Source of the DNA: a virus
Reading direction: 5' to 3' (one strand)
DNA length: 64,000 nucleotides
IMG/VR virus record: IMGVR_UViG_3300035684_000001
Coordinates: 124,001-188,000 of that record
The position numbers were made by a program, and so were the translations under genes. This document shows positions 5,434-61,886 of this stretch, piece after piece. Below the pieces are notes generated by a model. It was not told the DNA's origin and searched no databases. It saw nothing but the letters and a program-made list of their open reading frames with translations. The first letter of the stretch is position 1. Each line of letters opens with the position of its first letter.

Positions 5434-5856
5434 ATGACACTCGTACAAGCTCACCTCAGATTTGGTCGCGAACCCTTACAGATTCCATATCCCGAAGATT
5501 TTGAAGGGGATAAATACGACGGTGGAAATACAGACTTTGACGATGCTGAAATTTACATTTCTACTGAACCGAGATTTTTTACCCCTGACGAGATCGAAGT
5601 TGTTCAAGAGTACCTAAAAACCCTTCTTTATTCGCAAGAGTTGATTGAGACGGGCTGCATCATGATCGACGAAGACGATCCGCTCCTTGAATTCGATCAC
5701 GACCAATTAGATGCTCTCGAACAAGATCAGTCGTTGCCTCAAACTCGCAAACCGATCGGCGGTGGAACTCGCCAGTTGTTCGAGCGGGTTTTGCTGATCA
5801 GGGAATACGGCTACAGAGGTACGGGGTTTAAAGGATTACCAGGAGCTAAAGAATAA
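5434..5856 (+). CDS. Late protein between connector and sheath genes (140 aa)
   Basis: ATG at 5434 with Shine-Dalgarno ggag 7 bases upstream. The product is acidic and has a conserved-looking C-terminal block GGGTRQLFERVLLIREYGYRG. Its stop overlaps the sheath start (taATGc). A tail-terminator or neck role would fit the position, but no motif proves it. Confidence 0.55.
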   Translation: MTLVQAHLRFGREPLQIPYPEDFEGDKYDGGNTDFDDAEIYISTEPRFFTPDEIEVVQEYLKTLLYSQELIETGCIMIDEDDPLLEFDHDQLDALEQDQSLPQTRKPIGGGTRQLFERVLLIREYGYRGTGFKGLPGAKE

Positions 5857-8800
5857 TGCCCAGCGCTTTGCAACAATCAATCAAAATTTACGGACCCCCA
5901 GAAGGCGCACCCGGTGTGTCTGTAATCGAGCAGCGGTCAGTAAGTATGCTCGGCGATCCTCAATTTGGCGCGATCGCCCTTTGGGGAAATTTGCGTCGGG
6001 GTCCAGTCGGTTTGCCCGTAGCTATTTCATCGAAAAAGCAGTACCTAGAACTGTTCGGCGATCCCAAAAACCCGGCGTGGCACTTGTACGAAAACAGCGC
6101 CCACCTTTGCCCGGATGCAATTGACGGTTTTTTTGCAACTTCAAGGGGTAAAGGAATTCTATTCCTGTCGCGCCTCGAAATAGATAATGCTAGACCGGCC
6201 GAAATAATTATCAAGAACCGTCAAGGTGCGGACGCACTCAGAATCACCGCCGCCAACCCAGGTCGCTGGGGCGGATACAGAAATGAAATTCCGATTTCTA
6301 CCGTTGTCGTGGCTACTTCACGGACGTTTACGCTCGTCGCACCTTCGGTAAAATCCAATGAATTCATTGGAGCTAAGGTTCGTTTTACGTCCAACTCCGG
6401 CAAAACCTACGAAATAGTTGCAAACACGGCAGCAACAGATTCTGGTGAAGTAGTCTTCACAGTAGGAGCTCAGTACGATCTTGTAGCTGATGGAATTTCG
6501 GGTCCAATTTCCATCGACGGAACAGCCAGTTACGCAACAACGAGATCGCTCTCCGGTACAATTTCTTTTCCGCTTTTGGTTAATTTATCGGGTCAGTGTA
6601 CGGCTAACCTGACTACAATTACTGGATTCTCAACCTTGTTTGTTTCCGAGTTGAAAGTAGGTGCAAACATCTATTTAAACGGCGAAGCGAGAAGGATCGA
6701 AAGCATTACTTCAGACACTACTTTAACTATCTCAGAACCCTTTAGCAGCGATGGTCGAGATTTAGTAATGCAGCGCGACAATCTCGTTGTAACAGGAGTA
6801 GGTACGGAATTTGTTTCGGAATTAAAACCAGGAGATTCAATTTATTACTCACACGATGGCGAAGAATATAGCAGAGAAATTGCTGCGATCGCCTCTGCAA
6901 CTTCTTTGACCCTTGTATCGGGTTTTGATTTTCCAATTTTAGCTGGCTCATCTGCTTACGCAGACAATCTGTGGGTGACAGGACAAAACTCGGAATACGA
7001 AATTGATATCAAGACTGGCGATGCAATTATCGATCCAAATCGCCGGGGCGAAGCTGCTACTGTAGTTGAAATTGATGCAGCCAATCAGAGGTTTAAGGTA
7101 TTCCCCCGTTTTTCTTCAAGCTTTACCGACGCCCAATTGACGAAACAGTCTCAAAAAGTGCAGGTCAAGCTGGAACAACCAGAAAACGTTGGGCTGGCAA
7201 TCGAAATTGGACAAGGAACTAAATATCCCGAAACTCATTTTTCATTGAAATGTTATTTCAATGGAACTTTGATGATTTCGGTTCCAGATGCTTCTCTAGA
7301 GAGGGAAGATCCTTATTTTGTCGAGACTATCGTCAATGACGGCAATATCGGCTACCGCACCTCCGGACAAAATTATCAAACGTGGATTGTGGTTGAGTCG
7401 TTGTGGAGTTCGACTTACACGACGGGAATACAGTCTGACGTTCGCCCCTGCAACGGTACTGGCCAAGTTTTGGAGTTGGCAGCTCAAAAACTTTATACAG
7501 TCGGTCAATTTGATTACAACGCGGTCATCGGTCGCCTGTTTGCCCCAAATCCTTACAAATATTCCCGCAACGCGCTGAGAATAAAAAATGCCAGCGCTCC
7601 TTTGACCTTAGAAGGAACGATAAGTTCCAGCGGCGTAGATGTTAGGGGTACGGGAACAATTTTCCGCAAGCAGTTGAAGCGCGGCGATTACCTTTACGAT
7701 CCGGCATCGGGAACCGTTCGCAAAATTAGGTTGATTCCGAGCGACACCGAATTAATTCTTGAAACCATGTTTCTAAAGAATGTTCGGTCAGGGACAAAAG
7801 CACTGCGCTCTGGATATCTGCTTGTAGATCAAGGTAACGATCTTACGAACTACTGTAAAGTTGGTGATCGGTTTTTGGTGTCTTACCCTGAATATTTAAA
7901 ATTTGGGTATGATGGCGACACGGCTCGTTTAACTTCCTACAACTTTACCAAATATTTCGATCTTGATCGCAACTATTTAGTAACAGCAGTTTTTGGGAGA
8001 AATGTTGGACTCGTAAGAATGGCTGTTCCCGGTGTTTCCGACATATCAACTCAAAAAGCTGGCATTGAGTATGCGTATCAAAACGCTTTTGAGTATCGAG
8101 CAGAAATACCTTCCAATATCAACAATTCAGCAGTAGCGGAAGTTTTTATCGAGCAAGATTTGGAGCGCAACAATTATATGTCTGTTGCGTTTCCTTCTTA
8201 TGGATATGTTTCCAACCCGAGGGGAACTGGCGATCGGTTTGTTTCACTTTCGGGCGACATTATGGGACTAGAAAGTGCCAAAGCAAGTTTAGCAGAAGGC
8301 TATCACCATCCCGCTGCTGGGCTTGACGCTCGTTTGTCAAGAGTAACAAAACTACCGTTTACGCCCACTCCCAGCGATGAAGCAATTTTGAATTTAGTCG
8401 GCATTCAACCGATTAAAGTTTATGCCGGCAAAGTTATTGTTTGGGGTGCTAGGTGTCCGTCTGTTGACGATATTTATACCTTTCTCCATGTCAGGCGAAT
8501 TCAGTCGAATTACCTGCGAGTGTTTATGGAAGCTAGAAGCTTCTTGCAAACACTGTTTCAGCCAAATCAACCTGAATTAGCGCAGCAAATTGTACTAATT
8601 CTCGAAAGTTTTGCGCGACGGGAATACCAGAAAGGAGTTTACACTCGATATCTTTCTTTCGATCAAGCCGTAAGAATTGATTCTTCCGGTGGGGAGTCTG
8701 GCGATTTTGACGTAGTAGTTTCAATTCTCAATGGAGAATTGAATATTTATTACGGGTACATTCCAACAGGTGTATTAGAAAGGTTGCAAATTTTTGTAGC

Positions 8801-11015: not shown

Positions 11016-11315
11016 TTACATTATTTTTCCGTAAAGAATGGATGTTTTAGTGGGAAACCCTATAACGTAACTTCTTTCTTCTATCTTTGCTACGATCGCC
11101 TCACGAGTACACTTGATACCGTGATACTTAGCAAAATCTTTAAAAGAAGATTCTGCGTAGTCCTGATCTATTACACCGATATCAAACTCCCAGTCTTCTC
11201 CGAGAGTTTCTTCAATGTAGTCATATAAAATCCTGAGTCCTTTATTAGAGAAATTGTCTGGACTTGCAGATTTAACGCGCCTGAAAAAATCTTTGAAAGA
11301 CATTTGCATTTTCAT
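11016..11315 (-). CDS. Phage accessory protein (99 aa)
   Basis: ATG at 11315. TTGCTT and TATAAT 17 bases apart lie upstream, followed by an A-rich leader. The pattern FSNKGLRILYDYIEE followed by a D..FDIG.IDQDYAE strand recalls a widespread family of small phage proteins of unknown function that read F..EGLEALFEYLEE and FDVIAICCDY. Likely soluble and acidic. No activity can be assigned. Confidence 0.6.
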   Translation of the reverse strand: MKMQMSFKDFFRRVKSASPDNFSNKGLRILYDYIEETLGEDWEFDIGVIDQDYAESSFKDFAKYHGIKCTREAIVAKIEERSYVIGFPTKTSILYGKIM

Positions 11316-11376
11316 TGTGTTTCTGAAGAGTGTTTATAATACTATTATAACTCGAATAAATAAATAAAGCAAACGC

Positions 11377-11415
11377 AAAAAGCCTGCAATCTATTAGTTT
11401 AGATTGCAGGCTTTT
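11377..11415. terminator. Hairpin terminator
   Basis: AAAAGCCTGCAATCT...AGATTGCAGGCTTTT, downstream of the minus-strand gene 11427-11939. Confidence 0.85.
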
Positions 11416-11426
11416 GTTAATGAGAT

Positions 11427-11939
11427 TTATTTAATCTCAGTTTTTTTGGTAATAACATAACTGTTGTTGACAACAGTTATTGTTCCTGTGTTTGTCTCAT
11501 CACCTTTTTCGCCACGCCATTCGACGCAGCCGTTGACAATGACACCCCAAGGTCTTAAAAAATTGTCAATGAGGTAGTCCAACCATTCTGAGGGATAATG
11601 AAACGAGTCATTTCCATCCCATTGGAGGAAGTCACCTTCTGTTGAAGGTATCCAATTACAGTACAAGCTAGGTTGGTTGGTAGGTGGTTCATTGGGATGA
11701 ACGACAGATAGAGAGTCACAATCTTGACCCATAAGTACCATCGATCCGACATAATATTCTGCTTCCCAACCTATTGGTAGTTTGACAGCTTTTCTTATTG
11801 GATCTGGGAGCTTTTCAGCAATTAGCTGATCTCGTTTCATCCGCCTCGTTCTTGCGAATTTCATTAGATAATTAACTTGCTCCGTTGTTAGTTTTGGGGA
11901 TAGATTGAATTTTCCGTGAAACGTGGTTGCGTGACTCAT
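11427..11939 (-). CDS. Conserved phage/bacterial hypothetical protein (170 aa)
   Basis: ATG at 11939. The central block YCNWIPSTEGDFLQWDG, then YPSEWLDYLIDNFLRPWG, NGCVEWRGE and a final beta strand match a family common in actinobacteria and their phages (W.P..DG..LEWDG.EKFYDY..WL.YLI..FL.PWGY.LNGEV.W.GE). Its function is not known. It has a private promoter (TTGTTT, 17 bases, TATAAT) and terminator. Confidence 0.65.
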   Translation of the reverse strand: MSHATTFHGKFNLSPKLTTEQVNYLMKFARTRRMKRDQLIAEKLPDPIRKAVKLPIGWEAEYYVGSMVLMGQDCDSLSVVHPNEPPTNQPSLYCNWIPSTEGDFLQWDGNDSFHYPSEWLDYLIDNFLRPWGVIVNGCVEWRGEKGDETNTGTITVVNNSYVITKKTEIK

Positions 11940-24094: not shown

Positions 24095-24445
24095 ATGTTC
24101 TTTTTTCGCCAAGAAAATTATTCGGTAAGGGAAGGCGAGTCTATCGAAATTTCCGTAGTTCGACACGATAGCTCTCGACCTGCGTCGGTTCGAGTTGCGA
24201 CCAGCAACAGGAGTGCCAAAGAAACTGACTACGTTCCAATAAATCAAGTTCTTTCTTTTGATGTTGACGAAACTCACAAAGTAGTCAGAGTTTTTGCAAA
24301 AAAAGATTACCTTGTAGAAGGAGATGAATTTTTCACTCTACAACTGTTAGCGACAGAACCAAATACTATTGGATCTCCGTCGATCGCCACGATCAAAATT
24401 ATCGATATGCCCGTACCAACTGACGGTTTACCTACTTTTGATTGA
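24095..24445 (+). CDS. Single Calx-beta domain protein (116 aa)
   Basis: aaagga lies upstream of ATG 24095. MFFFRQENYSVREGESIEIS, then RVATSNRSAKETDYV and GDEFFTLQLLATEP give a complete Calx-beta module, with a short tail. It resembles the minus-strand protein at 12008-12334. Probably a surface-binding virion decoration, cotranscribed with lysozyme. Confidence 0.7.
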   Translation: MFFFRQENYSVREGESIEISVVRHDSSRPASVRVATSNRSAKETDYVPINQVLSFDVDETHKVVRVFAKKDYLVEGDEFFTLQLLATEPNTIGSPSIATIKIIDMPVPTDGLPTFD

Positions 24446-24526
24446 GTTAATTTTACAAAAAAATGGCAAAATTAAGCAAGTTATTTTAAAAATAATAATT
24501 GTGCATAATGTTACACTAAGGTGTGT

Positions 24527-24532
24527 TATAAT
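24527..24532 (+). promoter_or_regulatory. Extended -10 promoter element
   Basis: TGTGTTATAAT ends about 25 bases before ATG 24558; no clear -35. Same extended -10 form as the other accessory genes. Confidence 0.45.
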
Positions 24533-24557
24533 AATCATGTTCACGTTGGTTAAACAC

Positions 24558-25109
24558 ATGACACTTGATAATGCAATGAAATTAATGGATGTGCAAGTAG
24601 TTTTCACTCTTGAAAATATATTTTCCATTGAAAAAACAATTGAACTAGAGAATAATACTTCTTTTGAAAAACTGGTGTTTAAGATTGACAAACCTTTTGA
24701 AATGTTTGCCTTACAAGGTTGTACTACATTTTTGGTTGTCTGTAAAGATGTAGCAATACAAGCAATGAAGTCTGTCAATACTGCAAAAGGAGGCGGACTA
24801 CCTCTTGATGCTGATGATTCTTTTTCAAATTACCCCGACAAAAATAGCGCTGATATTCTTGGTCTTATAACTTCAGCAAAGATCGAGAGTTCAGATTTCT
24901 TTGTAAAAGGACATTTGTTTCCTTGGAGTCCAAAAAATAAAGCAGGCGACATTATAAACCCAAACAATTTGGGAATATTTTTGAATGGAAAAGTTTTGGG
25001 AAATATTGTCGAAATTAATGAATCAAAAGTGTTACAAGTATCTAGCCTCGAATTTCTAGGGGGAAATCTTTTTCTCACGAACAACAACTCTGCTCTGCTG
25101 CCAGCTTAG
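24558..25109 (+). CDS. Duplicated, catalytically dead capsid-protease domain (183 aa)
   Basis: ATG at 24558 is preferred because the promoter -10 is at 24527. From FKIDKPFEMFALQG on, the protein follows the protease domain of the gene at 27541: KGGGLPLDADDSFSN, GLITSAKIESSDFFVKGHLF, NPNNLGIFLNGKVLGNIVE, SSLEFLGGNLFL. The putative catalytic His of the parent (SKHANED) is replaced by Y, and the putative Ser (GMSLNG) by F. It lacks the N-terminal region and the scaffold. Likely inactive, possibly dominant-regulatory or simply a relic. Confidence 0.65.
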   Translation: MTLDNAMKLMDVQVVFTLENIFSIEKTIELENNTSFEKLVFKIDKPFEMFALQGCTTFLVVCKDVAIQAMKSVNTAKGGGLPLDADDSFSNYPDKNSADILGLITSAKIESSDFFVKGHLFPWSPKNKAGDIINPNNLGIFLNGKVLGNIVEINESKVLQVSSLEFLGGNLFLTNNNSALLPA

Positions 25110-25160: not shown

Positions 25161-25205
25161 AAAAAGAGGGGCGATCGAATTATTATCCTATCGCCCCTCT
25201 TTTTG
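25161..25205. terminator. Bidirectional hairpin terminator
   Basis: AAAAAGAGGGGCGAT...ATCGCCCCTCTTTTT between convergent genes 24558-25109 (plus) and 25217-25606 (minus). Confidence 0.85.
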
Positions 25206-25216
25206 TGAATCAAATT

Positions 25217-25606
25217 TCAGTTATTTAGCGGGAACGACAATTCGATCGCTGTTATTTGCGTCAAAAAATATACTGCGCTAGGATTGCGTTCTCCAACTTG
25301 CTCTTGCATTTGAATTTTTAAGTATTGTAAGTATCCCGGAGTTAGGGACGATTCAATTAATTTTGCTGATTCCGCGATATACTTTGCAGACTCCAATTTA
25401 GCCATCGCATCTTGTACTTGTGCTTTTTTTGAATATTCTGCACGGGCTAGTGCTGCCCTTCCGTCTTGTTCGGAACTGTACACATTGTAGTTAGGGATAA
25501 ACCAAAGCACAAATGCAATTGCAAACAACAAAACTATAAATCCTAAAAAACTAAAATTGAATTGGTTTGACAGATCGATTTTGAAGCCATATTTTGCCAG
25601 TGACAA
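25217..25606 (-). CDS. SPFH/band-7-derived phage membrane protein (129 aa)
   Basis: TTG at 25606 appears to be the start; a TATAAT lies about 30 bases upstream. One transmembrane helix (FSFLGFIVLLFAIAFVLWF) is followed by IPNYNVYSSEQDGRAALARA, an A/K/E helix and TPGYLQYLKIQMQ. This matches small phage proteins reading P.YNVW...L.G.A.L..AE and N..YLRYLWIQ, cut-down SPFH-type membrane organisers of unknown role. Located at the inner membrane. Confidence 0.65.
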   Translation of the reverse strand: MSLAKYGFKIDLSNQFNFSFLGFIVLLFAIAFVLWFIPNYNVYSSEQDGRAALARAEYSKKAQVQDAMAKLESAKYIAESAKLIESSLTPGYLQYLKIQMQEQVGERNPSAVYFLTQITAIELSFPLNN

Positions 25607-26040: not shown

Positions 26041-27468
26041 ATGGTTCAAAACAGCCTAACCCGATCGCCCGTCCCAGACTTTCAGTATCAGCAACGCGCC
26101 ATTGCCTCATTATACAGTGCCTCGGAATACTTCAACCCGGTGGGTCACTTTAATAAATCGCTCAACTGCGATCCAGTGAGTCCCCAAAAATTGAGGTCGA
26201 TTTCTAAAAAGACACTGTTCTCGCGGGCGATCGAGCGGATTTCGAATGCTGTTGTGGCAATGCCGTGGACGATCGCCCCACCAGAAGAACTGAGCGATGA
26301 TGAAGGAGCTCGAAAAAAAGCGCTCGAATTGACCAAGGCACTGAGCCAGCCGAACAACGCGGAACACGACTTGTACAGCAGTTTTGTCAAGGCAGTAATC
26401 CGGGATATTCTGGTCATGGGGGTTGCAGCGGTAGAGAGGCAACCGGGAACTCAAGGATTTCAGCCTTTTTGGCTGTGGGTAGTGCCACCGGAAAAAGTTT
26501 ACCTAGATGGAAATTGGGATGCGTCTAGGGAGGGTATACACCCCAAGTTTTGGTACTGTCAAAACCAAGACAGAAGTTCTTATCGTTATTTGGACGATAC
26601 TAACTGGATACCGATCCTCAGTAAAAATCTTTTTTTAATTCAGAACCGATCCGCGAGTAACGAATTATTTCCGCCGTCTCCAGTCGCTTGTGCTTACGAA
26701 CGGTTAAATACGTGGTTGGATCTCGATAACTATCAAAGCCGGATAGTGAACAATCCGGTACGAGATTACATGATCACAGTTGAAAATGCTACTCACGATG
26801 AATTGCAACCGTTCCGAGAGTATTGGAAAGTCAACGTTGTAGGCTCGGGAGAGGTTCCGATCCTAGCAGGCAAAGTAGATGTCATAAAATTTGGAGCCAG
26901 AAACGACGAAGAGTTATTTTTGAAGTTCTCAGACTATCTGGCTGGGCTGATCGCGATCGAGTTTGGACTATCGAAGCGCGACTACGGAATTGATCCCCAT
27001 GATAACCGATCAACGATGGGGCCCGCAGCGGATTTAACGTTCCAAGATGCAATCTTGCCGATCGCCACCTGCGTAATTGAAAATTTAAACATCAAAGTTA
27101 TTGACTTCTATGCTCCTGGATACACGTTGACGTTAACTGACACGGAGCCGAGAAAAGAAAGCGAGGAAGCTGACACAGCAAGCACTCTGTACACTAACGG
27201 AATTATTACAAAAAATGAAAGTAGACGGCGGGTCGGTGAAAAACCTTTAAGTGAAGAGGGGGGAGATAAATTTTTTGAAGGAAAAACGGGAACAACTGAG
27301 GAGACTCTTGCAATTCCAGCAGAACCTCCGATACTACCAATGGAGCTTCCAACAATTCCGCCGCAGTCTAAACGAGAATCCCAAGGCAGAACTCGGCGCA
27401 AATCCCCGCGAAAACCCAAAAGGTCTTCCATTGAAGAAACTAATAGTATACAATTATCATTATTCTAA
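26041..27468 (+). CDS. Portal protein
   Basis: 475 residues, usual portal size. Features: KTLFSRAIERISNAVVAMPW near the start, RDILVMGVAAVERQPG and the wing segment, YLAGLIAIEFGLSKRDYG, and the C-terminal clip/stem region TASTLYTNGIITKNESRRR with GEKPLSEEGGD. Portals form the dodecameric gate of the capsid for DNA packaging and tail attachment. The tail is followed by a proline/arginine-rich end. It starts the head module. Confidence 0.85.
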   Translation: MVQNSLTRSPVPDFQYQQRAIASLYSASEYFNPVGHFNKSLNCDPVSPQKLRSISKKTLFSRAIERISNAVVAMPWTIAPPEELSDDEGARKKALELTKALSQPNNAEHDLYSSFVKAVIRDILVMGVAAVERQPGTQGFQPFWLWVVPPEKVYLDGNWDASREGIHPKFWYCQNQDRSSYRYLDDTNWIPILSKNLFLIQNRSASNELFPPSPVACAYERLNTWLDLDNYQSRIVNNPVRDYMITVENATHDELQPFREYWKVNVVGSGEVPILAGKVDVIKFGARNDEELFLKFSDYLAGLIAIEFGLSKRDYGIDPHDNRSTMGPAADLTFQDAILPIATCVIENLNIKVIDFYAPGYTLTLTDTEPRKESEEADTASTLYTNGIITKNESRRRVGEKPLSEEGGDKFFEGKTGTTEETLAIPAEPPILPMELPTIPPQSKRESQGRTRRKSPRKPKRSSIEETNSIQLSLF

Positions 27469-27540: not shown

Positions 27541-29187
27541 ATGGACAAGGAACTAGCCGGAGCCGGAAAAATGCTATCTCAATTAAACAGCGGTCGCTTG
27601 ACAGCGGCTTTTGTTGAGATAGGTAAAACGCTCATAGCCGCAGGCGCAATCTCCGCATCAGATTTAGGAACTCTGTTTGAAGGGGTTGCAGAAACTTTTG
27701 AGGGTGAAAACACCTTAGAAGCGGGTGCAGCTATGAGCCTTCGGGAGCGATACAAGCGAGAGATTGTCTGGAGCAATTTTCGCCATTTGCTCAGCAACCT
27801 AGAATCTATGTGTAATGGAATTCTTTCCACACCTAAGGATTCAGCAGATCGACTATCTGCAATCGTTTCTGACTTTAAAGACACTTTTAACGAAATACTC
27901 AAAGAAGCATCAACCCTCGATCCGATTCCAGACGATTTTGGAATGATGCACAGAGGCGGTCTTTACTGCGCTAAAACAGAAGATCCTAGCGAGTTATCGG
28001 CTTTGCAGTTAGTGGAGTCTGCATCTCAATTAGTTGATGTAGAACTGCATTTTGGTATTGAAAAGCCGCTAATCCTTGAAAAAGCAATCGAAATTAATTC
28101 CGACGAATCTGTAGAAACTGTAGAGGCTTCTAGTCCAAATCAAAATATTACTCCGCTAAAAGGGGTGTTATTTAAAATTGACGAACCTTCCGAGTCAGCT
28201 CCTTCAAAAGGTTCTGATTATCCTCTGCTTATCCCTATGGATGTAGCGGAAAGAGCAATGGAATTTGTTAATGCCGCAAAAGGACTGCCTCTTGATGCTG
28301 ACGATTCTTTGTCAAAACACGCCAACGAAGATATTATCGGCATCATGACTTCAGCGGAAATTGATGCTTCCGATTTCGTTGTTAAAGGACATCTATTCCC
28401 TTGGAACCAAAAAGACAAGGTAGACGCAATCGCCCTAAACCAAAACAACTTGGGGATGTCTTTAAACGGAAAAGCTTCTGGGAAAATTGTCGAGATGAAC
28501 GGCTCAAAAGTTTTTGAGTTGTCCAACCTCGAAATTTTAGGGGCAAACATTCTACTTAAGAACAGAGCGACATATCAAAAAACGCGAATTTATCCGCTGG
28601 GTGAAATCGCAGCATCCGCACCAAATGAACTAGAAAACCAATCAACAGAAGGAGTAAAACCAAATATGGACTTAGAACGGGCGATCGGGGAACTCCAAAA
28701 AACTTTAGGAGAAATCAGAGCAGATGGCGCCAAGGAGGCTGAAATTGCAAAAGCCAGAATTCAGCAACTAACAGAAACAGTTAGCGCTCAACAACATTTG
28801 CTACAAACGATTCAAGCCGAACGCGACCAATCAATCGCAGTAGCTCAATCGCAAACTTTGGCGGCCCAAAAAGCCCAAGAACACCAAGAGTTAATTGCAG
28901 CTATTGGTACTGCGGTGCAATCACAAGTTCAGGCTCAAGTAGGTTCATTAAAAGAAGAAATTATCGACTCGATTAATCCTAAGCGAGTACCCCCGCGCAT
29001 GACTGGTTCTTTGGTGGGTATAACAGCAGCCGGACAGGAAAACCAACAGTCAAATGCGGTGCGCGATAAACTTTTAATTATCTCTGGAGAACTAAAAGCG
29101 TTAGGCGAGGATCAAGCTACTAATCCTCGACGTATCGCTCTATTAGACGAAGCTCACAGACTGAACCAACAATTATCTGTAAGCTAG
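27541..29187 (+). CDS. Capsid maturation protease fused to scaffold (548 aa)
   Basis: Three parts are visible. Residues 1-200 are helical and unrecognised. Residues ~205-350 form a prohead-protease-type domain: SDYPLLIPMDVAERAMEFVN, SKHANEDIIGIMTSAEI with the likely catalytic His, GHLFPWN, NLGMSLNGKA with the likely catalytic Ser, and SNLEILGANILLKNRATY. From 376 on a long coiled coil (ERAIGELQKTLGEIRADGA) is the likely internal scaffold. Protease-scaffold fusions are well known in tailed phages. An internal start at 28666 may yield the scaffold alone. Confidence 0.8.
   Translation: MDKELAGAGKMLSQLNSGRLTAAFVEIGKTLIAAGAISASDLGTLFEGVAETFEGENTLEAGAAMSLRERYKREIVWSNFRHLLSNLESMCNGILSTPKDSADRLSAIVSDFKDTFNEILKEASTLDPIPDDFGMMHRGGLYCAKTEDPSELSALQLVESASQLVDVELHFGIEKPLILEKAIEINSDESVETVEASSPNQNITPLKGVLFKIDEPSESAPSKGSDYPLLIPMDVAERAMEFVNAAKGLPLDADDSLSKHANEDIIGIMTSAEIDASDFVVKGHLFPWNQKDKVDAIALNQNNLGMSLNGKASGKIVEMNGSKVFELSNLEILGANILLKNRATYQKTRIYPLGEIAASAPNELENQSTEGVKPNMDLERAIGELQKTLGEIRADGAKEAEIAKARIQQLTETVSAQQHLLQTIQAERDQSIAVAQSQTLAAQKAQEHQELIAAIGTAVQSQVQAQVGSLKEEIIDSINPKRVPPRMTGSLVGITAAGQENQQSNAVRDKLLIISGELKALGEDQATNPRRIALLDEAHRLNQQLSVS
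28666..29187 (+). CDS. Nested scaffold protein (alternative internal start)
   Basis: In-frame ATG at 28666 (codon 376 of the fusion) is preceded by AAGGAG at 28649-28654, 11 bases away. The product, 173 residues beginning MDLERAIGELQKTLG, is almost entirely coiled coil and corresponds to the scaffold alone. This matches the lambda C/Nu3 arrangement. The spacing is somewhat long, so translation is plausible rather than certain. Confidence 0.5.
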   Translation: MDLERAIGELQKTLGEIRADGAKEAEIAKARIQQLTETVSAQQHLLQTIQAERDQSIAVAQSQTLAAQKAQEHQELIAAIGTAVQSQVQAQVGSLKEEIIDSINPKRVPPRMTGSLVGITAAGQENQQSNAVRDKLLIISGELKALGEDQATNPRRIALLDEAHRLNQQLSVS

Positions 29188-29275: not shown

Positions 29276-30331
29276 ATGGCTAATCACGTAAGCGACATTC
29301 GATTTGAAGATCCCCTTGCTGTTCAAGATTCCATGATTCAAGCAGGAGCTAGCAACCTAGGCGGGTTTGCAGTTCGCCAAGATTTTTTACCTTTGATTGG
29401 AGATTACCGCGTCAAAGTTACACAATTCTGGAAAAGAATTACTAACAAGCTTCCGGCAGCTTCCCCGATTATTCAAGAAATGATAACTTCTTCGTTGCCA
29501 ACAGTTGCGTTTGCACCTAGAGGCAACTTAGAAGCTGTTCCCACTCAACCACCAATTTCGCTTGGGTATGGTCCTGGGCAAGAAGTTAAAGCAATAGTTG
29601 GTCGCATTCACTGCGAACACTTTGCTATGAGTATGGTTCACCAACAAAATAATGCTTACGGCGATCAAATGTCAACAGACACTCACAACTTGATTCTGTC
29701 GGCAATGCGTTTCTTGGAAAGGTCTTTGTTTACCGGAAATGCAAGCGTTAACCAACTTGCTTTTAACGGAATGGTGGCGCAAATGCCACCTGAAAACCTT
29801 TTTACGGCAGACATTACGAGCGATAATCCAGACGCAATTCACGATAAAATCGACGAAATTTGCTCAAGATCGGCGTATCGACCTAACTCGCTGATCGAAC
29901 ACTATCCAACACATATCTTTTGTAGTGGGGCTGGTGATCGACTAATCAAAAAAGAAATCAAGCAACTTCAGTTATATCACAACGTAAAAGAGATAACTCC
30001 TGGCGTTAAAGTGCCAGCTATTTCTACTTCATTTGGAGATGTAGAAATTGTTCCTACTGTTTATTTGCAAGATAAATCAGAAGAAGATGCAGATATCATT
30101 TCCTACTATATAGTCGATATGAATAATTTTGCTTGGTTCGGCGTTTATCCCTACGGCGGTCAAAGAAAATTCGAGCCGCAAATATTTGACTTGAGCCACG
30201 TAGTGAACGGACTGCCGACCCTGCGAGAAAGAATGATTATTCTCTACGGGACTCCAAAAGCTATGGACGAAGGTAGGGGAATCTTTAGGCTCGACGTAAA
30301 AGCTCCTCGCGGTTCTAAGTTTGAGGGTTAA
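29276..30331 (+). CDS. Major capsid protein
   Basis: 351 residues directly after the protease-scaffold gene, the standard position of an HK97-fold capsid protein. Long N-terminal arm, then PRGNLEAVPTQPPISLGYGP, LILSAMRFLERSLFTGNASV, YPTHIFCSGAGDRLIKKEIK and the beta-rich P-domain segment DIISYYIVDMNNFAWFGVYP. Its central and 3' parts are partly duplicated downstream. Forms the icosahedral head. Confidence 0.85.
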   Translation: MANHVSDIRFEDPLAVQDSMIQAGASNLGGFAVRQDFLPLIGDYRVKVTQFWKRITNKLPAASPIIQEMITSSLPTVAFAPRGNLEAVPTQPPISLGYGPGQEVKAIVGRIHCEHFAMSMVHQQNNAYGDQMSTDTHNLILSAMRFLERSLFTGNASVNQLAFNGMVAQMPPENLFTADITSDNPDAIHDKIDEICSRSAYRPNSLIEHYPTHIFCSGAGDRLIKKEIKQLQLYHNVKEITPGVKVPAISTSFGDVEIVPTVYLQDKSEEDADIISYYIVDMNNFAWFGVYPYGGQRKFEPQIFDLSHVVNGLPTLRERMIILYGTPKAMDEGRGIFRLDVKAPRGSKFEG

Positions 30332-30376: not shown

Positions 30377-30870
30377 ATGAATAAAAATCACGACAAATTA
30401 CTGGAAAGTCTAGATGTCGTAGGGTGTCGGGTTGTTTTGAACGGAATGGTAGCTCAAATACCTACTGACAACCTTTTTGAAGCGGACATCACTAGCCATA
30501 ATCCCGATGTGATTAGCGAAAAGATTGAGGAAATCTGCACAAAATCAGCGTTTCGACCAAAATCGCCAATCAAACCGACACATATTTTTTGTAGCGGAGC
30601 TGGTGTTCGATTAATGATTGCAGAAATCAAACAGTTGCAGTTGTTTCACAAGGTAAAGAGATAACTCCCGGCGTTAAAGTACCATTTATTTCTACTCCAT
30701 TCGGGGATGTAGAAATCGTTTCTACCGTCTATTTACAAGATAGAACAGAGCCAGGTGCAGATATCATTTCGTACTATATCGTTGACATGAAAAATTTCGT
30801 CGATCAAGGAACGTTTAGGCTCGACGTAAAAGCTCCTCGCGGTTCTAAGTTTGAGGGTTCAAAATGCTAA
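30377..30870 (+). pseudogene. Partial, frameshifted copy of the major capsid gene
   Basis: From LNGMVAQIPTDNLFEADITS the sequence follows the capsid protein, then an A is missing in the run at ~30655 (aaag instead of aaaag), so the frame ends at KVKR. The other frame continues EITPGVKVPFISTPFGDVEI and DIISYYIVDMKNF, skips the WFGVYPYGG-to-MDEGR section and ends LDVKAPRGSKFEG. The last 43 bases before the end (30817-30859) are the same as in the parent (30288-30330), indicating recent recombination. Not expected to make a functional capsid protein. Confidence 0.8.
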
Positions 30871-34262: not shown

Positions 34263-34985
34263 TTAGATAGTGATACCACATTTTGGAAGTTTCTTGCACA
34301 ACCAGTTGATATCACGATCGCTAATTTGATTGCCTCCGAGGTAGAGTCTTGTCAGATTAGTCAGCGATGCTAGTGGTTTGATATCGCTAATCTGATTGTT
34401 TTCGAGGGATAGCCCGACCAGATTAGTCAAAGTTGTTAGTGGCGTAAGATCGGTAACTTGACTGTCGCTGAGAGCAAGCCATTCCAAATTAGTCAAAGCT
34501 TGTAACGGTTCGAGGTTGGTAAATTGATAACCGTAGAGGTGATCGTAGATTACGAGATTAGTCAACTTAGTCAAAGCTCGTAACGCTTCAAGACTGCCGA
34601 TCTGGTTTGTTAAGTGTCTTGGCGGTTCAACGTCGCTAATCCGATTATTTCCTATGAAAAGCTCAGTTAGATTAATCAAAGAAGCTAGCGAATCAAAATT
34701 GCTGATTTGATTGCTTACCAGCATGAGCCAAGTTAGATTAGTCAAAGTTGTTAGTGGTGTAATATCGCTAACCGGATTGTCTCTGAGACAGAGCCGACTC
34801 AGGTTACTTAAAGAGGATAACGGCTTAATGTCGCTAATTTGATTGTTTTCAAGGTAAAGTGCCGTTAGGTTGACTAAAGATTCTAGCGGTTTAATCTCGC
34901 TGATTTGATAGTCAGCGAGATCAAGCTCTGTTAAATTGTTTAGGTCAAATTGAGCTAGAATTTTTTCAGTGTGTTGGATTGTCAT
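34263..34985 (-). CDS. Leucine-rich-repeat protein 1 (240 aa)
   Basis: Nearly the whole protein is built of ~22-residue SDS22/internalin-type repeats, e.g. LVNLTALYLENNQISDIKPL and LTNLTWLMLVSNQISNFDSL, about nine copies with one irregular 30-residue insert around residue 120. It ends NWLCKKLPKCGITI, shared in form with three other LRR genes here. No signal peptide or anchor, so it is cytoplasmic. Binding target unknown; curved LRR proteins usually mediate protein-protein contacts. Confidence 0.85.
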   Translation of the reverse strand: MTIQHTEKILAQFDLNNLTELDLADYQISEIKPLESLVNLTALYLENNQISDIKPLSSLSNLSRLCLRDNPVSDITPLTTLTNLTWLMLVSNQISNFDSLASLINLTELFIGNNRISDVEPPRHLTNQIGSLEALRALTKLTNLVIYDHLYGYQFTNLEPLQALTNLEWLALSDSQVTDLTPLTTLTNLVGLSLENNQISDIKPLASLTNLTRLYLGGNQISDRDINWLCKKLPKCGITI

Positions 34986-37118: not shown

Positions 37119-37706
37119 ATGAAAATTGCAAAACAAAGTATTGCACAATATTTAACTGTTGTCAGTGCAACTCAACTCAGCAACTACAGCTTATTGACTT
37201 CTTTTATAGACCTCAGTCATGTTGCACTCAAAGACCATCAGATTAACGATATTAGTTTTATATCTTTTTGTAGAAAACTAAGCTGGCTCGGACTCGGAGA
37301 CAATCAAATTGAAGATATTAGTTCGCTGTCTTCGTTAATTTCTTTGACCGACTTATTTCTTGGACAAAATCAAATTAAAGACATTAGTCCGCTAGCTGGC
37401 TTGATTAATTTGACCGGTCTTGGTCTTGGCGACAATCCGATCAAAGAAATTGATCCGTTAAGTTCTTTGATCAATTTGACTCATCTCGAATTTGGAAATA
37501 ATCAAATTGAAAGTATCAGTTCGTTAGTTTCTTTGGTTAATTTAAAATGTCTCGCTCTTGGAAACAATTGCATCACAGATATTAGCCCGTTAGCATCTCT
37601 GGGTAATTTGACTTTACTCCACCTTGGAAGTAATCGCGTTAGCGACAAAAATATGAGTTGGCTACGCAACAAATTACCAAATTGCCGTATCACAATGGAC
37701 GAGTAA
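37119..37706 (+). CDS. Leucine-rich-repeat protein 2 (195 aa)
   Basis: ATG at 37119 after TGTTATACT and an A-rich leader. About six repeats of the type LINLTGLGLGDNPIKEIDPL. Ends SWLRNKLPNCRIT, parallel to LRR protein 1. Hydrophilic, no signal peptide. Paralogue in the moron island; target unknown. Confidence 0.85.
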   Translation: MKIAKQSIAQYLTVVSATQLSNYSLLTSFIDLSHVALKDHQINDISFISFCRKLSWLGLGDNQIEDISSLSSLISLTDLFLGQNQIKDISPLAGLINLTGLGLGDNPIKEIDPLSSLINLTHLEFGNNQIESISSLVSLVNLKCLALGNNCITDISPLASLGNLTLLHLGSNRVSDKNMSWLRNKLPNCRITMDE

Positions 37707-38444: not shown

Positions 38445-38921
38445 ATGACAATGCGATTTACCCAAAGCAAATTTTATGTCTTTGACGATCTAAACAATCT
38501 TACTGGATTGACCGTCGCGGACAGTCAAATCAATGACGTTAAATTTTTGACTCCTCTAACAAACCTGAGAATGCTCAGACTTAACAACAATGACATTAGC
38601 AACATTAAACCGTTAGAATCTTTAGTAAATCTAGAAAGACTTGATCTTAACAACAATCAAATTAGCGACATTAAATCATTAGCTAATTTAACCAATTTGC
38701 ATTGGCTTTATCTTGAGAACAATCCAGTAAAAGATATTGAGCCATTAGCTAATTTAACTAAGCTAACAAGGCTCAATCTGAGCAAGACGCTAACAACAAC
38801 TTCTCGTGTAATGTGGTTAAAAAAACGACTCCCACATTGCGAAATTCGTTACGCATTCGTAAAAAACAACATACATTACGTAAAAAGGAATAATGAATGG
38901 TATATTCATACAGAAGAATAA
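38445..38921 (+). CDS. Leucine-rich-repeat protein 3 (158 aa)
   Basis: ATG at 38445 after TGTTATAAT and leader ttcacaaaacaATG. Four to five repeats (LVNLERLDLNNNQISDIKSL), then the conserved cap MWLKKRLPHCEIR and a 20-residue tail unlike the others. Cytoplasmic. Same family as LRR 1, 2 and 4. Confidence 0.85.
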   Translation: MTMRFTQSKFYVFDDLNNLTGLTVADSQINDVKFLTPLTNLRMLRLNNNDISNIKPLESLVNLERLDLNNNQISDIKSLANLTNLHWLYLENNPVKDIEPLANLTKLTRLNLSKTLTTTSRVMWLKKRLPHCEIRYAFVKNNIHYVKRNNEWYIHTEE

Positions 38922-52717: not shown

Positions 52718-52778
52718 TTGCGTATCACCACAACTTGTGATACCATCAAAACAAAATGGATTTCTACCCATATATCTA

Positions 52779-53264
52779 ATGACATACATTTACCCTGCCG
52801 CATATACCGCCGAACAGTTAGAAAAAATTTCTAACATAGTCCTCCTAACGGACGTGGCTGCTGAAGACAAAGGCATTGAAGATTTATCGCCTTTCACCGA
52901 GCTCACGCGAATAGATCGTCTGTGGTTGAAAGGTAATAAAATTAGCGATCTCAGCCCGCTGACATCGCTAACCAAAATGGTACATTTAGATCTGAGAAAA
53001 AATAAAATAGTCAATCTCGCTCCACTGGCAGCGTTGACGAGATTGACTTGGCTTTACCTTGACGACAATCAAATTGTCGATCTTACACCGTTAGGTTCGT
53101 TAACCAACCTAACACGGCTAGATCTTATAAATAATAAAATTACGAGCCTCAAGCCATTAAGCTCGCTGCCCAACTTAGCCGAGCTTTTCATCACAGGAAA
53201 TGACATTAGCCCGGAGGAAAAAAGCTCGTTTCAGAAAGCGCTGCCAAATTGCATCATGCAGTAA
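52779..53264 (+). CDS. Leucine-rich-repeat protein 4 (161 aa)
   Basis: ATG at 52779 (MTYIYPAAYTAEQLEKISNI). Five repeats of the LTKMVHLDLRKNKIVNLAPL type, terminal cap EKSSFQKALPNCI. Same overall plan as the three LRR proteins at 34-39 kb, 14 kb away. Cytoplasmic; partner unknown. Confidence 0.85.
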   Translation: MTYIYPAAYTAEQLEKISNIVLLTDVAAEDKGIEDLSPFTELTRIDRLWLKGNKISDLSPLTSLTKMVHLDLRKNKIVNLAPLAALTRLTWLYLDDNQIVDLTPLGSLTNLTRLDLINNKITSLKPLSSLPNLAELFITGNDISPEEKSSFQKALPNCIMQ

Positions 53265-56354: not shown

Positions 56355-57017
56355 ATGAAAATCGTAAAATTGCTCAACGACAGCGGCGTGTTAATCAGCA
56401 AAAAACTAGCTGACACAATAGCAGCTTTTAAGTTCCATAACTGCGGAAGTATTGACGAGTTAGCAAGCGATTTTGTTAAAAAGTTGGTAAAATTCACCAA
56501 AGAAGCGTTGCAAGACTCCGAGAATTTCTACCAGGACGACGATTACCCCCGTAAAATTTACAACCTTATTTCCGAAGATGCTGCTTCCCGTGAACTGCAA
56601 GACGCGATCGACAAAATAGAAGATGATTTGCATGAATGGAAAGTCGGAGACGAGCTTGACAATTTGATTGTCGAAATTATTGCCTGCACGGTTGAATCTA
56701 CGACACACAGCAGTGATTTAAAACAACCACATCTATGTCAGTCATTACCTAATACTGAGGAAAACAGCGTCCTCTTAACAGTAGAGGGTTCTCAAGAGTA
56801 TATTGAACAACTTGTATCTTCCATCAAATCAGAAGATTTAAAAAAATTAAGCGATTTTCCCATCCTAGATGTTCAAATCTTGAGTAAAAATTCAGAGAAA
56901 AGTGAAGATGAAATAAAAAAGCCCCCAACACTAGAACAGCTAATGGAGGGAGTTACGGCAGAAAATATGCACTCAGAAACAGATTGGGGTTCTCCCGTTG
57001 GCAAAGAGATATGGTAA
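56355..57017 (+). CDS. Protein ending in a MazE-type toxin-binding tail (220 aa)
   Basis: ATG at 56355, leader aatcaaaaccaaATG. Residues 1-185 are helical and unlike MazE (no N-terminal AbrB swapped hairpin). The last ~30 residues, LEQLMEGVTAENMHSETDWG then SPVGKEIW, match the C-terminal MazF-neutralising tail of MazE antitoxins (typical form LEELLAGVTPENIH.E.DWG.PVGKEVW). No MazF-like toxin follows. The natural reading is a phage protein that carries a MazE decoy peptide to block host MazF; this is inference from sequence. Confidence 0.75.
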   Translation: MKIVKLLNDSGVLISKKLADTIAAFKFHNCGSIDELASDFVKKLVKFTKEALQDSENFYQDDDYPRKIYNLISEDAASRELQDAIDKIEDDLHEWKVGDELDNLIVEIIACTVESTTHSSDLKQPHLCQSLPNTEENSVLLTVEGSQEYIEQLVSSIKSEDLKKLSDFPILDVQILSKNSEKSEDEIKKPPTLEQLMEGVTAENMHSETDWGSPVGKEIW

Positions 57018-60500: not shown

Positions 60501-61886
60501 ATGCAAGACTTAGGATTTTTCTGCCCAGACCTAGCGGCCGCCATCGGGCTCGACGAAGCAGTAATTTTCAACAAACTTCAGTGGTGCGTCGAGAACCCGG
60601 CGATGAGCGGCACGATCGCCCCTGACGGACTAAAGATGATCCGAAATCCGATCGCCTGTACAGACCCGCGCAAACTGAGCAAGTCCCACGGCAAGAAAAT
60701 AGACTGGCTCAGCAACTTCCCCTGGTTAACCGCCCACAAACTCCGCCGCATATTTGCTCGACTTGAGGGATTGGGCTTGATCGTTGTACGCCAACTTCGA
60801 GCTCATACTTGGGATCAGTGCAAATACTATTCGGTGAACTATAAGAAGCTAGCTGAGCTGCTAGAACCCGCACAACTCTCGATTTGTGCAAAACCGCCAA
60901 ATCGATCGCCCGAAAACGATCGCATCGATCTCGCGTCTGAGCGCAAATCATATCAAAATACATCTTCAGAAAAAGTCTTTCAAGAAATCTCTCCCGGAGA
61001 AGCGGGCGGAACTATTGATAAATTTTTAGAAACAAAAAAAGAACTCGAACAAGAGAAGAGGTTGCCTGAAGATGGTCTGCTAGAAGCAAAGGTAGTTTCT
61101 GAACCCTGGCAAAAAAATGAAATCTTTGAAAAGGATAAATGTTCCGTGCTGTCGAGTTCGGTTGAGCGGAAATTGTTTTTTGAGAGGTTATTGGAGTATT
61201 GCTACCAGCGGACAGACATCGATTGCCCCGAGGGGTATGCCAACTGGGTAATGCGCGAGTCTAAGTCGAAAACACCTGAAGCCAGCGTGGCCCTGCTGTG
61301 GGATGAGTTTACCGCCGGCGAGGAATTGGGCAGCCGCTTAGTTCCCCCCGGCTTCAGGTTGCGGGGAGCACCGGAACGGGTGGTAGCTGAGGCGATCGCC
61401 CAGGACTGCATCAACAAAGTCGGCGCGACGACGACAGAAGCGGCCAAAAATGCAGCGGGGCAGTTGCGGAGATTGCCAGTTGTGGCGGCGGTGGCGAATG
61501 CTGTGAAATTGGGATTGGAGCGGGCGATTGAGGATGCGACGCGGCAAGTAGAGTTGGGAGTGCCGAAGCAACGGGCGATCGCCAACAACCTTCCAACTTA
61601 TGCAAGTGCCTGCGTTGAAAATTCACTGCCGGAACTTCAGCTTGCTGCCGGCGGGGACGCAGTTGCAGAAGAAACAGAAGACCCTTACGCACCGACGCCG
61701 GAAAGTTTAGCAGCCCGGGAAAGAGCGCGATTGCTTCTCAACAAGAAGTTTGACAAACCGACTAAGGCAGAAGAGATTTTGGCTGCTAATATTGCTGAAT
61801 TTGTTGAAAAAGAAGCCTCCACAGTTGAATCTGCGAAGGCTGCAATTACCGAGAAACATGAAGACGAGGAACCAATACCTTGGTAG
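60501..61886 (+). CDS. Replication-type winged-helix protein, copy B (461 aa)
   Basis: ATG at 60501. N-terminal ~130 residues (GFFCPDLAAAIGLDEAVIFN, then WCVENP, RNPIACTD, IDWLSNFPWLTAHKLRRIF, DQCKYY) form a winged helix-like domain, followed by an acidic linker and a C-terminal GEELGSRLVPPGFRLRGAPE domain. It is the paralogue of the gene at 1-1503. Resembles phage replisome organisers and plasmid Rep-type proteins; role in replication is inferred. Confidence 0.75.
   Translation: MQDLGFFCPDLAAAIGLDEAVIFNKLQWCVENPAMSGTIAPDGLKMIRNPIACTDPRKLSKSHGKKIDWLSNFPWLTAHKLRRIFARLEGLGLIVVRQLRAHTWDQCKYYSVNYKKLAELLEPAQLSICAKPPNRSPENDRIDLASERKSYQNTSSEKVFQEISPGEAGGTIDKFLETKKELEQEKRLPEDGLLEAKVVSEPWQKNEIFEKDKCSVLSSSVERKLFFERLLEYCYQRTDIDCPEGYANWVMRESKSKTPEASVALLWDEFTAGEELGSRLVPPGFRLRGAPERVVAEAIAQDCINKVGATTTEAAKNAAGQLRRLPVVAAVANAVKLGLERAIEDATRQVELGVPKQRAIANNLPTYASACVENSLPELQLAAGGDAVAEETEDPYAPTPESLAARERARLLLNKKFDKPTKAEEILAANIAEFVEKEASTVESAKAAITEKHEDEEPIPW

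Follow-up and report, generated by a model that had tools for sequence, protein, structure and literature searches.

The window analysed here, 64,000 nt in length, comprises bases 124001-188000 of a 188,553-bp virus record (IMG/VR record IMGVR_UViG_3300035684_000001). It carries a structural cluster in which tail-fibre-like genes are followed by a lysozyme (PF00959), a Calx-beta protein, a 183-aa ORF, two small minus-strand genes, a portal protein, a 548-aa ORF and a major capsid protein (MCP). We refer to the 548-aa gene as the parent, to the 183-aa ORF as the copy, and to one related phage record of 188,942 bp as the kin phage. The main features of the locus are these:

24095 to 24445, plus strand: Calx-beta protein (PF03160, E=9.7e-15; 93% amino acid identity in the kin phage), the 5' border of the slot that holds the copy
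24524 to 24532, plus strand: extended -10 element TGTTATAAT, a putative promoter of the copy's own, kept in the kin phage
24558 to 25109, plus strand: the copy, a 183-aa paralogue of the prohead-protease domain, apparently catalytically dead (BLASTP E=1e-46 to 27541-29187; AF2/Foldseek match to gp21)
24831 to 24833, plus strand: Tyr codon TAC at the presumed catalytic His position (parent H260; H in 33/33 homologues)
24978 to 24980, plus strand: Phe codon TTT at the presumed catalytic Ser position (parent S307; S in 33/33 homologues)
25161 to 25206, no strand assigned: inverted repeat with A/T tails, self-complementary over 44 bp, a probable bidirectional terminator closing the slot
26041 to 27468, plus strand: portal protein (PF04860, E=2.9e-22)
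27541 to 29187, plus strand: the parent, 548 aa, with an N-domain, a prohead protease domain and a coiled-coil scaffold/targeting tail, between portal and MCP
29276 to 30331, plus strand: MCP, SU10-like (phrog_212 major head protein, E=7e-4; SU10_MCP, E=0.002, below its cut-off)

The copy opens at an ATG at 24558, an in-frame ATG at 24573 being also possible as a start. A preliminary description, made from the sequence, had aligned it with the protease domain of the gene at 27541-29187, and the homology is borne out by BLASTP (148 bits, E=1e-46, 45% identity, parent residues 158-342; 49% identity in a MAFFT alignment) and by a DNA identity of 71% over 341 bp (E=2e-42). Homology is confined to the middle, protease third of the parent; the copy has no counterpart of parent residues 1-157, of the terminal ATYQKT of the domain or of the coiled-coil tail, and is a paralogue of the same phage's protease cut at its C-terminal end. 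When the 548-aa protein was used as a query on the whole 188,553-bp record, matches were found at two places only, the parent itself and the copy.

No Pfam or PHROG profile names the parent, no protease Pfam matches the parent, the copy or 26 relatives, and PF04586 (Peptidase_S78) was not found in the genome. Structure prediction of both domains, which the preliminary description had proposed as a check, gave T4 gp21 (5jbl) as the best PDB match for each. For the parent domain, the AF2 model (pLDDT 78) matches it at E=1e-4 in Foldseek, and each of the 50 matches listed is a capsid assembly protease, those of herpesviruses included. The copy (pLDDT 71) matches three gp21 chains of 5jbl at E about 2e-4, its only matches below E=0.001. 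Both models align to 5jbl with a probability of 1.00 and a TM of about 0.4-0.5, and the relationship is hence distant. For the copy the result is partly built in, as the alignment given to AF2 included the active family and biases the model to that fold; its confidence is also low (pLDDT<70) in two parts, near the loop that would have held the His and at the C-terminal end. Viral structure models agree with a prohead-protease fold of both proteins, and parent and copy alike are predicted to belong to the T4 gp21/herpesvirus prohead-protease fold. In Selenomonas and Paenibacillus plasmids, the parent homologue is located after terL and portal.

Invariance, order and fold together point to H260 (28318-28320) and S307 (28459-28461), spaced 47 residues, as the catalytic pair of the parent. 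Both are invariant in 33/33 family members other than the copy (29 distinct domain sequences), a set comprising the kin phage, a Nostoc plasmid, the Selenomonas and Paenibacillus plasmids and 29 viral-contig loci, one of which is the Selenomonas element again. The spacing of the pair and the G-[FM]-S motif of the family resemble, as we presume, those of phage S78-type proteases. In the copy the His is replaced by Y92 and the Ser by F141, so that the parent has the pair expected of an active prohead protease and the copy has neither residue. Of the other residues invariant across the 33 sequences (G267, G283, G305, G334, A335, L338, A343, T348), the copy retains all four glycines, carries A335G, L338F and A343N, and has no counterpart of T348. 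The two substitutions had been read in this way from the outset, with the proviso that the pair might lie elsewhere in the alignment and be conserved in the copy; we found no such pair. H284 ('KGHLF') was considered as the catalytic His and rejected: it is kept in the copy, yet present in only 5/33 members. Homology, the 33-member family alignment and the fold search thus agree on a second capsid-protease domain minus both catalytic residues.

The copy occupies a slot of its own. The '-10 box' noted earlier ahead of it corresponds to the extended -10 at 24524-24532, which lies within 14 nt (24521-24534) identical to positions 5534-5547 of the kin phage, there ahead of a different gene; within the slot, this is the clearest identity between the two genomes. 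Other single genes of this phage also have this kind of element ahead of them, about 15-40 nt before the start codon. The slot-closing hairpin is kept at about 84% in the kin phage, near 5918-5961, and the flanks of the slot are 85-91% identical. Between the Calx-beta stop codon and the hairpin, the kin phage has an unrelated 125-aa ORF. GC content is 34% in the copy (4th percentile of ORFs) and 37% in the kin slot gene. Because the -10 and the hairpin enclose an unrelated gene in the kin phage, the slot appears to behave like a moron site. Phage morons are single genes with their own promoter and terminator, inserted between structural genes and usually foreign. The copy would share with them its own extended -10, the closing hairpin (promoter and terminator being recognised as sequence motifs conserved with the kin phage), its AT-richness and the exchange of gene content at the slot; unlike the usual foreign moron, it has its homologue among the virion-assembly genes of the phage that carries it.

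Two observations concern the surroundings of the slot. The small minus-strand ORF at 25217-25606, which adjoins it and is conserved in the kin phage, has a match to phrog_11227 'protease' (E=7e-16). Just downstream of the MCP, a partial MCP duplicate at 30377-30865 is frame-broken in this phage, and its kin counterpart (11101-11586) is an intact 161-aa ORF; given this fragment and the copy, a truncated second version exists of the capsid gene as well as of the protease gene.

The protease of the kin phage is 71% identical to the parent, and we found no second protease copy in the kin record; the other family records likewise hold one copy only (17/17), many of these records being fragments. 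Over 170 common codons, copy and parent differ by 0.36, 0.24 and 0.42 at first, second and third positions, and the parent and the kin protease differ by 0.16, 0.09 and 0.41. The third-position divergence of the copy thus equals that between the two phages' protease genes, which dates the copy to about the time when those genes split, and it exceeds that between their neighbouring portal (0.24) and Calx-beta (0.20) genes, which led us to reject a recent tandem duplication. Tree placement does not distinguish three topologies, in which the copy branches before, at or after the split of parent and kin. The copy may go back to an old duplication and have been lost from the kin phage, or it may have been acquired from a third related phage; the earlier term 'duplicated' therefore stands as to homology and leaves both routes possible.

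Searches of viral contigs for protease, MCP and portal homologues returned the one kin record only, genome contigs returned no kin phage, and phage GenBank records gave no protease or MCP match and one weak portal match, in Faecalibacterium phage Roos. The closest named relative is a 223-kb Nostoc plasmid, in which homologues of portal, protease and MCP follow one another as they do here, and on account of this relative we consider the host of this large virus to be probably a cyanobacterium. The plasmid itself, pC052_F of Nostoc sp. C052, is circular, carries a tape measure gene besides these homologues, and is probably an unrecognised phage-plasmid. The phage genome has further features of note: a single 6319-aa ORF, about a tenth of the genome, at record positions 70921-89880, outside the window; a leucine-rich-repeat-like paralogue family (34263-34985, 37119-37706, 38445-38921 and 52737-53264), some members with their own extended -10; two replication-initiator-like proteins, ~50% identical, encoded on opposite strands, one close to each end of the window (window 60501-61886 and record positions 123920-125518); and a protein at 56355-57017 with a match to a TRADD-like N-terminal domain (PF20694, E=3e-6).

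The preliminary description had also proposed a comparison of dN/dS. In a three-branch codon model, omega is 0.66 (about 0.38-1.25) on the branch of the copy and 0.13 on the catalytic branches; a single omega for all branches is rejected (2dlnL=18.4) and omega=1 for the copy is not (2dlnL=1.6), so that the omega of the copy differs from that of the catalytic genes and is not distinguished from 1. Family-conserved sites have changed in the copy as often as variable ones (18/39 versus 16/37), which indicates that the constraint of the parent family is gone. Other measures point to a maintained frame. No stop occurs in 178 aligned codons, where neutral simulation at the fitted divergence yields a mean of 4-6 stops and a probability of none of 0.002-0.014, or of 0.014-0.033 at 0.25 substitutions/site, roughly the smallest amount of neutral change that would still fit the omega interval. 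The four indels that separate copy and parent are all multiples of three (about 0.01 if the frame were random), and replacements in the copy are of a more conservative kind than under neutral change (mean BLOSUM -0.12 versus about -0.6, P=0.007-0.04). The reading that fits best is that the frame of the copy is still kept open and its protein has been freed from the constraints of the parent.

We favour, with about even confidence, the view that the copy is a maintained, non-catalytic pseudoprotease that acts by binding. It would be carried as a small AT-rich transcription unit, with its own extended -10 and closing hairpin, in a moron-like slot of the structural cluster, and the protein would be expressed, keep its fold and be unable to cleave. 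Since the catalytic residues are missing, any function would have to be exerted by binding, with the active protease or its substrates as partners, or with the copy as a structural part. Most likely the copy would bind the active protease, or the sites that the protease recognises on scaffold and capsid proteins, and so temper or time head maturation in its own infection, or interfere with that of a related competitor. Having no coiled-coil tail, it presumably does not enter the prohead in the way the parent does. Such a brake or interference factor on head maturation is our preferred mechanism, offered as a guess, with decay as its main rival. We think it improbable that the copy is a dominant-negative pseudoprotease which jams the head maturation of related competitors from its moron slot, the phage's own full-length enzyme escaping by divergence.

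The preliminary description had named a relic, a decoy and a structural paralogue as possibilities. As a relic, the copy would have reached the slot as an incomplete duplicate, or as a piece of the protease gene of a related phage, and would be drifting neutrally, its frame open by luck. An omega not different from 1 and the failure to spare family-conserved sites count for this and against the pseudoprotease, and AT-rich drift to the 4th percentile of GC, the missing C-terminal end of the domain and the absence of the copy from the kin phage also suit it. The frame-broken capsid-gene fragment at 30377, in the same cluster, is counted on both sides, as a neighbour consistent with decay and as a contrast to the open frame of the copy. 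The selection data argue moderately against a simple relic: neutral drift of about 0.25-0.39 substitutions/site would leave 178 codons without a stop with a probability of about 0.002-0.03, the indels are in frame, and the replacements are conservative. The -10 and the hairpin, moreover, are conserved at the borders although the genes between them differ in the kin phage. This phage keeps many diverged paralogues open. Because the tests depend on model assumptions and on one copy sequence, from the one genome with the gene, we regard a decaying relic as a serious contender, somewhat less probable than a maintained pseudoprotease.

A structural paralogue, in which the dead domain is now a minor component of the virion or the prohead core, seems unlikely to us. 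Its location among structural genes and a fold without activity would accord with such a role, as would the diverged, presumably inactive protease paralogues of other giant phages (PMC5694885) and the common ancestry that procapsid proteases and tail tubes are thought to have (Fokine and Rossmann 2016, as cited in PMC9958956). Against it, its own -10, its AT-richness and its absence from the kin phage indicate that the copy is not a core virion part, and it has no coiled-coil tail of the kind that presumably carries the parent into the prohead. Less probable still is an assembly artefact, a metagenomic chimera of two related phages, which would be compatible with a single metagenomic contig and a kin phage without the copy: a chimera junction would not be expected to give a complete open gene that has a conserved -10 and hairpin at its borders and is about equally diverged from both known parents.

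The nearest precedents for a maintained pseudoprotease are the 'cryptic' prohead-protease paralogues of giant phages, namely gp117 of Salmonella phage SPN3US, gp206 of 201phi2-1, gp143 of PhiPA3 and those of Erwinia giant phages (PMC5694885). gp117 is diverged, truncated and presumably inactive, and is missing the C-terminal part, to which prohead targeting of the enzyme is ascribed (PMC5694885); the copy is likewise a second, truncated and presumably inactive paralogue of its own phage's prohead protease without the C-terminal part. gp117 retains the aligned Ser and Asp and lacks the aligned His, whereas the copy has neither His nor Ser; gp117 is so diverged that profile methods were needed, and the copy is 45-49% identical to its parent; gp117 is conserved in several related phages, and the copy is absent from its kin and sits in a moron-like slot. 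Given an unrelated-looking phage, the closeness to its own parent and the loss of both residues, the copy looks independent of the gp117 case. The fold predicted for parent and copy is that of T4 gp21 and herpesvirus assemblin (5jbl, HCMV protease), at about 10-14% identity; the parent has the His/Ser pair and fuses protease and scaffold in one 548-aa chain, and the copy is without either catalytic residue and without the scaffold.

Our search of the literature for pseudoproteases or catalytically inactive prohead protease paralogues found nothing besides the SPN3US gp117 kind. Dead prohead-protease paralogues are on record from a few unrelated giant phages; the divergence of these is such that their age is not easily estimated, nor are they easily tested for selection. 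The copy described here is close enough to its parent for codon-level tests, it lies in a defined variable slot, and a catalytic parent and copy-less kin are at hand for comparison. Should selection be confirmed in orthologues, the copy would clearly exemplify the recruitment of a capsid-maturation enzyme to a non-catalytic role.
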